Source: Donghicola eburneus (GTDB lineage Bacteria > Pseudomonadota > Alphaproteobacteria > Rhodobacterales > Rhodobacteraceae). From it: DNA of 64,000 nt. Positions within the stretch are counted from its first letter, which is position 1; each line of letters begins with the position of its first letter. The stretch spans positions 310,001-374,000 of the forward strand of contig NZ_FOXY01000003.1 of the NCBI RefSeq assembly GCF_900115865.1. Reading direction: 5' to 3'. This document shows positions 30,585 through 36,375 of the stretch, piece after piece. Below the pieces are notes generated by a model, which did not search any database, had not been told where the DNA came from, and was given only the letters and a program-made list of their open reading frames with translations. The translations under genes and the position numbers were made by a program.

Positions 30585-30615
30585 TGTGATCACAGCTTTT
30601 GGGGGTGTGATCACA
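30585..30615. promoter_or_regulatory. Paired TGTGATCACA operator upstream of sucC
   Basis: Two perfect 10-bp palindromes TGTGATCACA at 30585-30594 and 30606-30615, exactly 21 bp apart (two helical turns). The same pair with the same 21-bp spacing is found upstream of sdhC. The site also lies 30 bp before the divergent glycosyltransferase gene. It is probably bound by a dimer of dimers. GntR-family AkgR, known in Rhodobacter sphaeroides to activate TCA-cycle genes, is a candidate, but I cannot confirm its motif. Confidence 0.7.
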
Positions 30616-30644
30616 AGTCTTTGCGGTGTTGCACAAAGATTCGC

Positions 30645-31652
30645 ATGAGGTCCGGCGCTAACATAAGTTGGTCCGTTGTGATGACGGTCAAGGAGCCTGC
30701 ACCGTTGGTTATGGCCAATGTGGGGTGGCATCTGTCCCTTGGGGCGACAGAGGTGCATGTCTACCTGGACGACCCAGAGGATTCAGTGGCCGATCAACTG
30801 GAGGTAGTTGACCGGGTCAACGTGATCCGATGTGACGACGCCCATTGGGACCGAATGACTGTCAGCCCGACGGGCACACGTCAGACCCGTCGCCAAGGTG
30901 TGAACGCGACCGATGCCTATCGCCGGACGAAAACCGATTGGATGATCCATCTGGATGCCGACGAGTTCCTGATGCCAGAGCGCCCGATCGGCCAATTGGT
31001 CGCCGAATACGCAAGGAAGGGCCGGTTTCTGCGGATTCCTCCGTGGGAACGCACATATCTGACGTCTAGCGCCCCGCAAAGTTTGTTCGAGGGTGGGTTT
31101 CGGCTCCCGTATGTCGGTAAACTGAAGGATGACCAGAACACGTTCTGGCGCGCCACCCCCTTTCTGACCAAAGGGCTGACAGGCCACTCGGTAGGCAAGG
31201 CTTTGGTCCCCACTGGGAAGGATTGGCGGATTGGCATCCATTCCCCGCGCGAGGGCGAGCGGCGGCTGCTCGGGGATTATGTTCCCGAGATTGCTTTGCT
31301 GCACTTCGATGGCATGACGCCGCTGCATTGGATGCTGAAGGTGCTGCGGTATGCTCACCTGCCGCGAGAGGTGGTCGAGGGCATGCTTGGGGGTCATCGG
31401 CGTGAACAGGTCTTGATGGCGCTGCGGCGCTCCCAATCACACGCGCGCCTTTTGCAATTCCATAACCGGCTCAAAGTTACAGATGGCGGCCTACGCGCTC
31501 GGCTTGAAGCGCGGGATATGTTTGTGGATGCGCCTTTTGAACCGGCCGAGCAAATCGCTGCGCACCTGGGTTACACGCCAGATTTGTCGGTCGATGGATT
31601 CGACGCGCTGCTCCGAGAACGCGCGAGCGATTTGCTGGACAGACTAAAATGA
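30645..31652 (+). CDS. Family 2-type glycosyltransferase
   Basis: 335 residues resembling the GT2-like (Glyco_tranf_2_4) family. It begins with VVMTVKEPAPLVMANVGWHLSLGATEVHVYLDDPEDS, the usual opening strand and turn, and has the metal/nucleotide-binding WMIHLDADEFL near residue 100. The acceptor and sugar are unknown; related genes serve surface polysaccharides. The ATG at 30645 is chosen for the family-like N-terminus; the frame is open upstream through the operator region and lacks resemblance there. It is divergent from sucC and shares its control region. Confidence 0.75.
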   Translation: MRSGANISWSVVMTVKEPAPLVMANVGWHLSLGATEVHVYLDDPEDSVADQLEVVDRVNVIRCDDAHWDRMTVSPTGTRQTRRQGVNATDAYRRTKTDWMIHLDADEFLMPERPIGQLVAEYARKGRFLRIPPWERTYLTSSAPQSLFEGGFRLPYVGKLKDDQNTFWRATPFLTKGLTGHSVGKALVPTGKDWRIGIHSPREGERRLLGDYVPEIALLHFDGMTPLHWMLKVLRYAHLPREVVEGMLGGHRREQVLMALRRSQSHARLLQFHNRLKVTDGGLRARLEARDMFVDAPFEPAEQIAAHLGYTPDLSVDGFDALLRERASDLLDRLK

Positions 31653-31654
31653 AA

Positions 31655-31680
31655 AACGCGCGCCGGTGAGGGCGCGCGTT
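31655..31680 (-). terminator. Terminator between the glycosyltransferase gene and mdh
   Basis: AACGCGCGCC (31655-31664) pairs with GGCGCGCGTT (31671-31680). Read leftward it is followed by TTTTCATTTT, a good tail for mdh. It may also slow rightward transcription from the glycosyltransferase gene. Confidence 0.75.
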
Positions 31681-31705
31681 CCAAAAACTCAGACCGTTGT
31701 GGCGA

Positions 31706-32668
31706 TTATGCCAGCGAGGGGTCGATCTCTTTGCATGCAGCAACGAGGCCTTTGACCGCGTCGACCGACTTGTCGAACATGGCCTGCTCGTCTTTGGACA
31801 GCTTGATGTCGACGACTTTCTCGATGCCGTTTTCACCGATGATGGTGGGAACGCCAACGTAGAAACCTTCGAGGCCGAACGCGCCATCAACGTAGGCCGC
31901 GCAGGGCAGCAGACGCTTCTGGTCTTTCAGGTAGGCTTCGGCCATTTCGATCGCCGAGGTCGCAGGTGCGTAGAACGCCGAACCGTTGCCCAGGTACTTC
32001 ACGATTTCTGCGCCGCCATCACGGGTGCGCTGAACGATGGCTTCCAGCTTCTCTGCAGTGGTCCAGCCCATGTCGACCAGATCGGGCAGAGGAATACCGG
32101 CTACGGTCGAGTAGCGGGTCAGCGGAACCATGGTGTCGCCGTGGCCACCCAGAACGAACGCGGTCACGTCGCGCATGGAGACATTGAACTCCAGCGACAG
32201 GAAGTGACGGAAGCGTGCGGAGTCCAGAACGCCAGCCATGCCGCAAACTTTGTTCGCGGGCAGACCCGAGAACTGCTGCAGGGCCCAAACCATCGCGTCA
32301 AGCGGGTTGGTGATGCAGATGACGAATGCGTCGGGCGCGTGGGCTTTGATGCCTTCGCCAACCGATTTCATCACCTTCAGGTTGATTCCCAGCAGGTCGT
32401 CGCGGCTCATGCCGGGCTTGCGGGGGACACCTGCGGTTACGATGCAAACGTCTGCGCCAGCGATGTCGGCGTAGTCCTGAGTGCCCTTCAGTGCGGCGTC
32501 AAAGCCAGCAACGGGGCCGGATTCTGCGAGGTCGAGCGCCTTGCCCTGGGGGGTGCCTTCAGCGATGTCGAACAGAACGACGTCGCCGAGTTCTTTCATT
32601 GCTGCCAGGTGTGCAAGGGTGCCGCCGATCTGACCTGCGCCGATAAGGGCAATCTTGGGTCGAGCCAT
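31706..32668 (-). CDS. mdh: Malate dehydrogenase
   Basis: A 320-residue NAD-dependent LDH-like malate dehydrogenase. The dinucleotide motif [12 protein letters not shown] is at the N-terminus, the mobile loop [15 protein letters not shown] carries substrate-binding arginines, and the catalytic histidine is in [10 protein letters not shown]. The ATG at 32668 is preferred over one 9 bp upstream because GGAG is correctly spaced for it. It is transcribed alone, between the suc operon and the rightward EMC/sdh group. An inverted repeat TGTGC/GCACA (32734-32738/32748-32752) lies in its upstream region and may be regulatory. Confidence 0.95.
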
Positions 32669-35088: not shown

Positions 35089-35093
35089 GACTG

Positions 35094-35300
35094 ATGAGCA
35101 AAATCTATCGTTTTTTGACCGAGGACGACACCTCGGACTTTTGCCACAAGGTGACTCTGGCCCTGTCCAACGGCTGGGAGCTGCATGGCAACCCGACTTA
35201 TTCGTTTGATCATGCGGCAGGAAAAATGCGCTGCGGTCAGGCGGTCACCAAAGAGATCGAGGGTGAGTACACCCCCGGCATGAAACTCGGAGAGCAATGA
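35094..35300 (+). CDS. DUF1737 family small protein
   Basis: A 68-residue protein with MSKIYRFLTEDDTSDFCHKVTLALSNGWELHGNPTYSFD and GKMRCGQAVTKEIEGEY, the DUF1737 pattern. It is a small alpha-beta domain of unknown function. The ATG at 35094 is 5 bp after the NnrU stop, and its stop is 1 bp before the next gene, so it is in the same operon. I recall this gene next to mch in relatives. Confidence 0.8.
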   Translation: MSKIYRFLTEDDTSDFCHKVTLALSNGWELHGNPTYSFDHAAGKMRCGQAVTKEIEGEYTPGMKLGEQ

Positions 35301-35301
35301 C

Positions 35302-36333
35302 ATGAGCAAGACCAACGCGGGACGTTTCTTTGAAGATTATGCAGTGGGCCAAGTGATTGACCACGCGGTTCCGCGGACGGTCTCGGGCGGGGAGCGGGCG
35401 CTGTACCACGCGCTCTATCCTGCCCGACATGCGCTGTATTCGTCGGACGCCTTTGCGCAGGCCAGCGGTCTGCCCAAGTCGCCGATGGATGATCTGATCG
35501 CATTCCACACCGTGTTCGGTAAAACCGTCCCTGACGTATCGCTGAACGCCGTTGCGAACCTTGGCTATGCCGAGGGCCGGTTCCTGAAACCTGTGTATGA
35601 GGGCGACACCCTGCGTTCGCGCAGCGAAGTGATCGGTGTCAAAGAGAACTCGAACGGCAAGACCGGTGTGGTCTATGTGCGCACCCAAGGCCTGAACCAG
35701 AACGACGAAGTGGTCATGGAATATGTCCGTTGGGTGATGGTCCGCAAACGCGACGTCACCGCGCCTGCGCCGGATGCAGTTGTGCCCGATCTGAAAAAGG
35801 TTCTGGCGGTCGAGGATCTGGTGATCCCCGAGGGGTTGGATTTCACTAATTATGACTTCACCTTGGCAGGTGAGGAGCATCGCTGGGCCGATTACGAGGT
35901 CGGGGAGAAAATCGACCACGTGGACGGCGTGACCATCGAAGAAGCCGAGCATATGCTGGCGACCCGCCTGTGGCAGAACACCGCGAAGGTTCACTTCGAT
36001 GCCACCTTCCGCGAAGATGGCAAGCGTCTGATCTACGGCGGTCATGTGATCTCGATGGCGCGTGCACTGTCGTTTAACGGCCTAGCCAATGCACAGATGA
36101 TCGCCGGCATCAACGGCGGCGCCCACGCTAACCCCTGCTTTGCGGGGGACACTGTGAAGTGCTGGACCGAGGTCTTGGATAAGGCCGAAACCAGTGCCCC
36201 CGGCGTTGGCGCATTGCGTCTGCGTCTGGTCGCGACAAAGGGCGGCGAACCGTTCAACCTGAAGGGTGAGAACGGCAAATACCTGAGTGAAGTACTCTTG
36301 GATCTGGACTACTGGGTTCTGATTCCCTGTTAA
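35302..36333 (+). CDS. mch: Mesaconyl-CoA hydratase (beta-methylmalyl-CoA dehydratase)
   Basis: A 343-residue double hot-dog (MaoC-like) protein. N-terminal GRFFEDYAVGQVIDHAVPRTVSGGE and the second-half GEHRWADYEVGEKIDHVDGVTIEE show the duplicated hot-dog layout; catalytic acid/base residues lie in the central VHFDATFR and NGLANAQMI regions. It hydrates mesaconyl-C1-CoA to beta-methylmalyl-CoA in the ethylmalonyl-CoA pathway. Identification is supported by the size, the adjacent thioesterase gene and the placement before sdhC, as in R. sphaeroides. After the stop a long inverted repeat separates it from sdh. Confidence 0.88.
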   Translation: MSKTNAGRFFEDYAVGQVIDHAVPRTVSGGERALYHALYPARHALYSSDAFAQASGLPKSPMDDLIAFHTVFGKTVPDVSLNAVANLGYAEGRFLKPVYEGDTLRSRSEVIGVKENSNGKTGVVYVRTQGLNQNDEVVMEYVRWVMVRKRDVTAPAPDAVVPDLKKVLAVEDLVIPEGLDFTNYDFTLAGEEHRWADYEVGEKIDHVDGVTIEEAEHMLATRLWQNTAKVHFDATFREDGKRLIYGGHVISMARALSFNGLANAQMIAGINGGAHANPCFAGDTVKCWTEVLDKAETSAPGVGALRLRLVATKGGEPFNLKGENGKYLSEVLLDLDYWVLIPC

Positions 36334-36338
36334 CGCTA

Positions 36339-36375
36339 AAACGTGATCACACTTATTAACGGTGTGATCACGTTT
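36339..36375. promoter_or_regulatory. Paired operator and long inverted repeat upstream of sdhC
   Basis: AAACGTGATCACA (36339-36351) and TGTGATCACGTTT (36363-36375) form a 13-bp perfect inverted repeat around an 11-bp spacer. Each arm contains a TGTGATCACA-like palindrome (36342-36351 and 36363-36372), 21 bp apart, as upstream of sucC. It overlaps a candidate -35 region. The same sequence could also form a hairpin at the 3' end of the mch transcript. Confidence 0.7.

Follow-up and report, generated by a model that had tools for sequence, protein, structure and literature searches.

The closest described counterpart of the elements reported here is the AkgR regulon of Rhodobacter sphaeroides. 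AkgR is an activator of the GntR family whose published motif is the palindrome GTGATCAC (excerpts of PMC6365646), and the GntR protein RSP_0981 was predicted to control RSP_0967-6 (succinyl-CoA synthetase), RSP_0974-6 (succinate dehydrogenase) and RSP_0965-62 (oxoglutarate dehydrogenase) (excerpts of PMC4344238). PS417_07240, a GntR-like protein of Pseudomonas simiae that is 32% identical to AkgR, has also been proposed to bind GTGATCAC, but it belongs to a deoxyribonate cluster, and thus to another pathway, in another bacterial class, and the excerpted account describes one palindrome for it (PMC6365646). Here we analyze a stretch of 64,000 nucleotides from Donghicola eburneus (contig NZ_FOXY01000003.1, positions 310,001 to 374,000; hereafter the window), in which two GTGATCAC palindromes stand 21 bp apart upstream of the suc operon and again upstream of the sdh operon. 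Very probably the AkgR ortholog of this host, which is predicted to activate suc and sdh, uses these pairs as its operators. Throughout, we take RSP_0981 and AkgR to be the same protein. The nearest solved sequence relative of the host ortholog is McbR (PDB 4p9f; E 9.7e-22 over residues 10-193 of 205), whose targets differ from those predicted for the ortholog.

The regulon itself is already known, and the example described here is new. Compared with the R. sphaeroides regulon, the host has a third pair at fumC, its regulator gene lies ~150 kb from sdh, and the double site is explicit; the excerpted texts of PMC6365646 and PMC4344238 make no mention of a double site, which the primary mBio 2015 paper may describe. 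What may be new is the contrast between a strict pair at tricarboxylic acid (TCA) cycle operons and a single site at akgR, although this too may have been published already. The analysis ties anonymous repeats to a named TCA-cycle regulator and extends the AkgR regulon to fumC in the host lineage and to akgR in nearly all loci looked at.

Both pairs in the window have the same layout, an 8-mer, a 13-bp spacer and a second 8-mer (GTGATCAC-N13-GTGATCAC), which gives 21 bp whether counted start to start or centre to centre. A preliminary description had placed them at 30585-30615, ahead of sucC, and at 36342-36372, ahead of sdhC, and both were located at these positions (Table 1). The sucC start codon (ATG at 30477, minus strand) is ~108 bp downstream of the first pair, and that of sdhC (ATG at 36515) is ~143 bp downstream of the second. 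Relative to TGTGATCACA, the sdh copies each carry one outer mismatch. The window has 8 palindrome matches with up to one mismatch, whereas 100 shuffles averaged 1.88 and never exceeded 6. Across the whole host genome, exact GTGATCAC-N0-30-GTGATCAC matches are confined to the suc and sdh pairs, and the reversed control found 0.

The same pattern recurs in 133 of 149 genomes of the host's family, mostly twice per genome, while the reversed control gave 0 matches in all 149. In 20 of these genomes, selected for having both pairs on one contig (regions of 13.6-20 kb), every pair precedes suc or sdh (40/40). Across 61 loci with 61 pairs (29 loci from the family scan and 32 from a later set), all 54 pairs with N12 or N13 precede sucC, sdhC, fumC or, in G136, sucA, and none of the 7 pairs with other spacers does. 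A set of 25 genomes had been picked for unusual pair counts and overrepresents the 12-bp spacer. Six additional other-spacer pairs, fetched on purpose, likewise gave none at these genes (0/13 in total). One site tally left out L029 (N10, without a gene) as well as L024 and L030 (outside the spacer range), and identical sites were merged. In a class-wide sample of 289 genomes, the four family members all had exact pairs, two each; any match at all occurred in 17 of the other 285, with scattered spacers. The preliminary description had named outcomes of such a scan of the genome and its relatives that would overturn its reading; the scan found the pair and its spacing conserved and enriched at TCA genes, and the reading was not refuted. 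Since an exact N12 or N13 pair marked suc, sdh or fumC at every family locus examined, it should be a useful signature of AkgR targets in this family. In the G136 case (G136:C1:87753-87781, L259), the locus has no sucC match and its genes are arranged differently, yet the pair still lies between mdh and the suc genes.

It is unlikely, we think, that the two palindromes are merely independent, redundant single sites whose 21-bp distance has no mechanistic meaning. Single sites do exist at akgR, and the fumC locus of the congener G039 has one intact and one degenerate copy, as such a view would allow. The spacer scan, however, permitted 31 lengths (0-30 bp), and among the 75 matches listed (36 genomes, counted by eye) 64 were N13, 4 were N12 and 7 were other lengths. 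Exact pairs at suc, sdh and fumC were seen with spacers of 12 and 13 bp only, other spacings being absent from these genes (the 0/13 above). G042 and G136 each show a spacing of three turns (N23), in neither case at suc, sdh or fumC. In a base-by-base comparison of 23 suc and 22 sdh N13 sites, in which the 8-mers themselves are fixed by the search pattern, conservation continues outside them as TT-GTGATCAC-A before suc and, towards the gene, as GTGATCAC-AAA, less marked at sdh. Spacers in the same sites favor A/T in the middle and show weak conservation elsewhere, which argues that the spacer length is what is kept. The proximal copy lies 97-154 bp from the start codon at suc (median 109, 25 sites) and 107-191 bp at sdh (median 137, 24 sites).

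The preliminary description had offered AkgR as a candidate regulator, and three lines of evidence now favor it: the motif matches, the predicted targets match, and an ortholog co-occurs with the pair. In the host, the ortholog gene (G000:C14:190516-191172) is on the same contig as sdh and encodes GntR and FCD domains. A set of 105 distinct orthologs shows conservation of three histidines in the FCD region, at positions 110, 144 and 187. The gene lies near sdhB in 2 of the 20 regions, those of G051 and G091, and at least 12 more genomes have it no more than 20 kb from a pair (G001, G010, G013, G033, G042, G063, G090, G093, G120, G121, G124 and G136), a location near sdh that would be expected from the RSP numbering (RSP_0981 versus RSP_0974-6 for sdh). 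An ortholog is present in 133 of the 149 family genomes at E < 1e-50, a limit set after the scores had been seen and falling between the weakest ortholog (6.7e-59) and the next matches (4.2e-48 and weaker). With the pair defined by the loose 0-30 bp pattern, 130 genomes have both pair and ortholog, 3 the pair only, 3 the ortholog only and 13 neither (Fisher P 1.8e-13, which is too optimistic because the genomes are related and their independence is overstated).

That overstatement is one of several points that weigh against assigning the pairs to AkgR. The protein is a putative ortholog, identified by its position near sdh, its motif and its targets. The pair occurs without a clear ortholog in G019, G096 and G114, and the ortholog without an exact pair in G040, G122 and G147; among these exceptions, G096, G122 and G147 are 73-77% complete, and tolerating one mismatch gives G040 two N13 pairs. 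When one mismatch is allowed in the N13 pattern, 130 of 149 family genomes match, including one pair each in G004 and G102, both without the ortholog; the matches listed are often G+C-rich and may lie away from TCA genes; one-mismatch N13 matches are not specific. In G061 the pairs have 5- and 14-bp spacers only, and no TCA gene was found beside either, the 14-bp one being near a contig end. Two N13 matches fall outside the family: L240, which precedes another GntR gene, and L242, with none of the query genes nearby. The class-wide reversed control matched in 2 of 289 genomes (G222 42 times, G379 once). Finally, consensus scans recognized no promoter at suc or sdh (0 sigma-70-like matches).

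A paralogous GntR/FCD regulator rather than AkgR could in principle read the pairs, for example the protein encoded at G000:C23:150749-151369 (39% identical). The paralog shares the domain family and a partly similar DNA-binding region, the host genome has 26 GntR-domain matches, and the excerpted report that assigns GTGATCAC to a GntR protein with 32% identity to AkgR indicates that related proteins can share the palindrome (PMC6365646). We nevertheless give this explanation little credence. G054 and G109, which have matches in the paralog range only (E 8.1e-48 and 6.5e-31), have no exact pair, and many genomes combine the pair with a single match, of the AkgR type. Upstream of the host paralog (L071) the sequence is TTTGATCAAG, not GTGATCAC, and its neighbors look like polyamine-type genes by eye; perhaps it is a sister regulator with a shifted palindrome. 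Hardly credible is the further proposal that a different global regulator binds the palindromes, such as a CRP/FNR-type protein (FnrL) or CceR: TGTGA and TCACA resemble CRP half-sites, but CRP leaves 6 bp between its half-sites and FNR 4 bp (TTGAT-N4-ATCAA), whereas here the half-sites abut; the CceR (RSP_1663) motif differs in the excerpted source ([AGT]GTT-N6-8-AAC[ACT]; PMC4344238); and co-occurrence points to one GntR gene, the FnrL and CceR genes having been outside that comparison.

In other families, GTGATCAC pairs were seen near other GntR genes at L240 (992-1020, N13) and L256 (1501-1532, N16), where the GntR proteins share 28% and 36% identity with the AkgR ortholog. These cases suggest that the palindrome dates from earlier in this GntR branch.

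Returning to AkgR as the regulator, we found the preliminary description right in proposing a shared operator design for a TCA regulon but too narrow in restricting it to two operons, since fumC is preceded by a third pair and akgR has a single site. Allowing up to two mismatches in the N13 pattern added exactly one pair in the host genome (G000:C25:498514-498542). This pair carries one mismatch and lies 107 bp before fumC, whose product has Pfam Lyase_1 and FumaraseC_C domains. Among 30 fumC loci, the best 30 of 141 genomes with a match, G042 has a perfect pair, the host its one-mismatch pair and G039 the half-degenerate pair mentioned above. The other 27 have none, which makes fumC a lineage-specific member. 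Exact TGTGATCACA sites number seven in the host genome, one of them directly before the GntR gene that is the akgR ortholog. By its sites, then, the predicted regulon here is at least four members strong: suc, sdh, fumC and akgR. Lone exact TGTGATCACA copies at L009 and L011 are inside open reading frames (ORFs). Another, at L008 (1501-1510; G000:C19:63761-63770), is intergenic; an ORF that looks sugar-kinase-like by eye starts ~200 bp beyond it, and the site may have arisen by chance or mark one more single-site target.

The site at akgR is single almost without exception. Within the 200 bp upstream of akgR, 78 of 80 loci from a wider contig collection and 29 of 30 family loci have one GTGATCAC, and no locus has two; the loci were found by tblastn, and both sets are the best matches to the host protein, with near relatives overrepresented. 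In the host, 9 bp separate the end of the lone GTGATCAC from the first ATG in the ORF, a position that would suit repression better than activation. A lone site at the start of akgR would allow autoregulation, probably repression, the sign being judged from position.

For the pairs, we propose that each 8-10 bp palindrome would hold one AkgR dimer. Palindromes 20-21 bp apart face the same side of B-DNA, and two dimers at that centre distance would bind cooperatively and, together, would activate suc and sdh, plus fumC in the host lineage. Adjacent dimers that touch each other or RNA polymerase would explain the fixed spacer length, and varying that length offers a simple test of the way in which a GntR/FCD protein activates. 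A stronger version, that AkgR activates only from two sites phased 20-21 bp and represses itself from one, with the number of sites setting the sign across the family, is conceivable, and we lean somewhat against it.

We claim no promoter position, because the consensus scans returned no promoter. A scan for sigma-70-like promoters in 36300-36530 had 0 matches, and the plausible -35 that the preliminary description saw abutting the sdh site, TTGAAA (36374-36379), was dropped since it is not kept in the congener G039. When 49 upstream regions (25 suc, 24 sdh) were scored for -10-like sequences, a weak peak appeared 27-30 bp beyond the sdh pair; after the suc pair there were several weak peaks (~18-21, 36-39 and 46-48 bp), among which no choice is possible. 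If the 27-30 bp peak is real, the proximal sdh palindrome would be near -43.

Table 1. Predicted operators and genes of the suc and sdh operons in the window.
Feature	Coordinates	Strand	Basis
GTGATCAC operator (predicted), sucC-proximal copy	30585..30594	.	exact TGTGATCACA
GTGATCAC operator (predicted), sucC-distal copy, 21 bp from proximal	30606..30615	.	exact TGTGATCACA
GTGATCAC operator (predicted), sdhC-distal copy	36342..36351	.	reads CGTGATCACA
GTGATCAC operator (predicted), sdhC-proximal copy, 21 bp from distal	36363..36372	.	reads TGTGATCACG
sucC, first gene of suc operon	29284..30477	-	Pfam ATP-grasp_2, Ligase_CoA
sucD	27938..28819	-	ORF; homologs adjoin sucC in relatives; named by sequence recognition
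sucA (2-oxoglutarate dehydrogenase E1)	24873..27836	-	ORF; gene order kept in relatives; named by sequence recognition
sucB (dihydrolipoyl succinyltransferase)	23354..24868	-	ORF; gene order kept in relatives; named by sequence recognition
sdhC, first gene of sdh operon	36515..36907	+	Pfam Sdh_cyt
sdhD	36922..37293	+	part of ORF 36757-37293; gene order kept in relatives; named by position
sdhA	37309..39114	+	Pfam FAD_binding_2, Succ_DH_flav_C
sdhB	39456..40235	+	ORF; gene order kept in relatives; named by sequence recognition

Each operon of the window also contains a small ORF without a Pfam match and with a lipoprotein-like start by eye, at 28874-29281 (-) between sucC and sucD and at 39114-39443 (+) between sdhA and sdhB. 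Between mdh and sdhC lie a malyl-CoA-lyase-like gene (33673-34530, by eye), with homologs in all 20 of the regions compared, and a mesaconyl-CoA hydratase gene (35302-36333, Pfam MC_hydratase), with homologs in 19 of the 20; a methylmalonyl/ethylmalonyl-CoA mutase-like ORF (by eye) follows further on at 42650-44647. On the other side of the suc pair, a glycosyltransferase-like ORF (by eye; 30681-31652, +) is divergent from suc and starts 66 bp from the pair. Five of the 20 regions have a homolog of it, that of the congener with 79% identity and those of four others with 28-36%, and the suc pair could therefore face that gene in some genomes.

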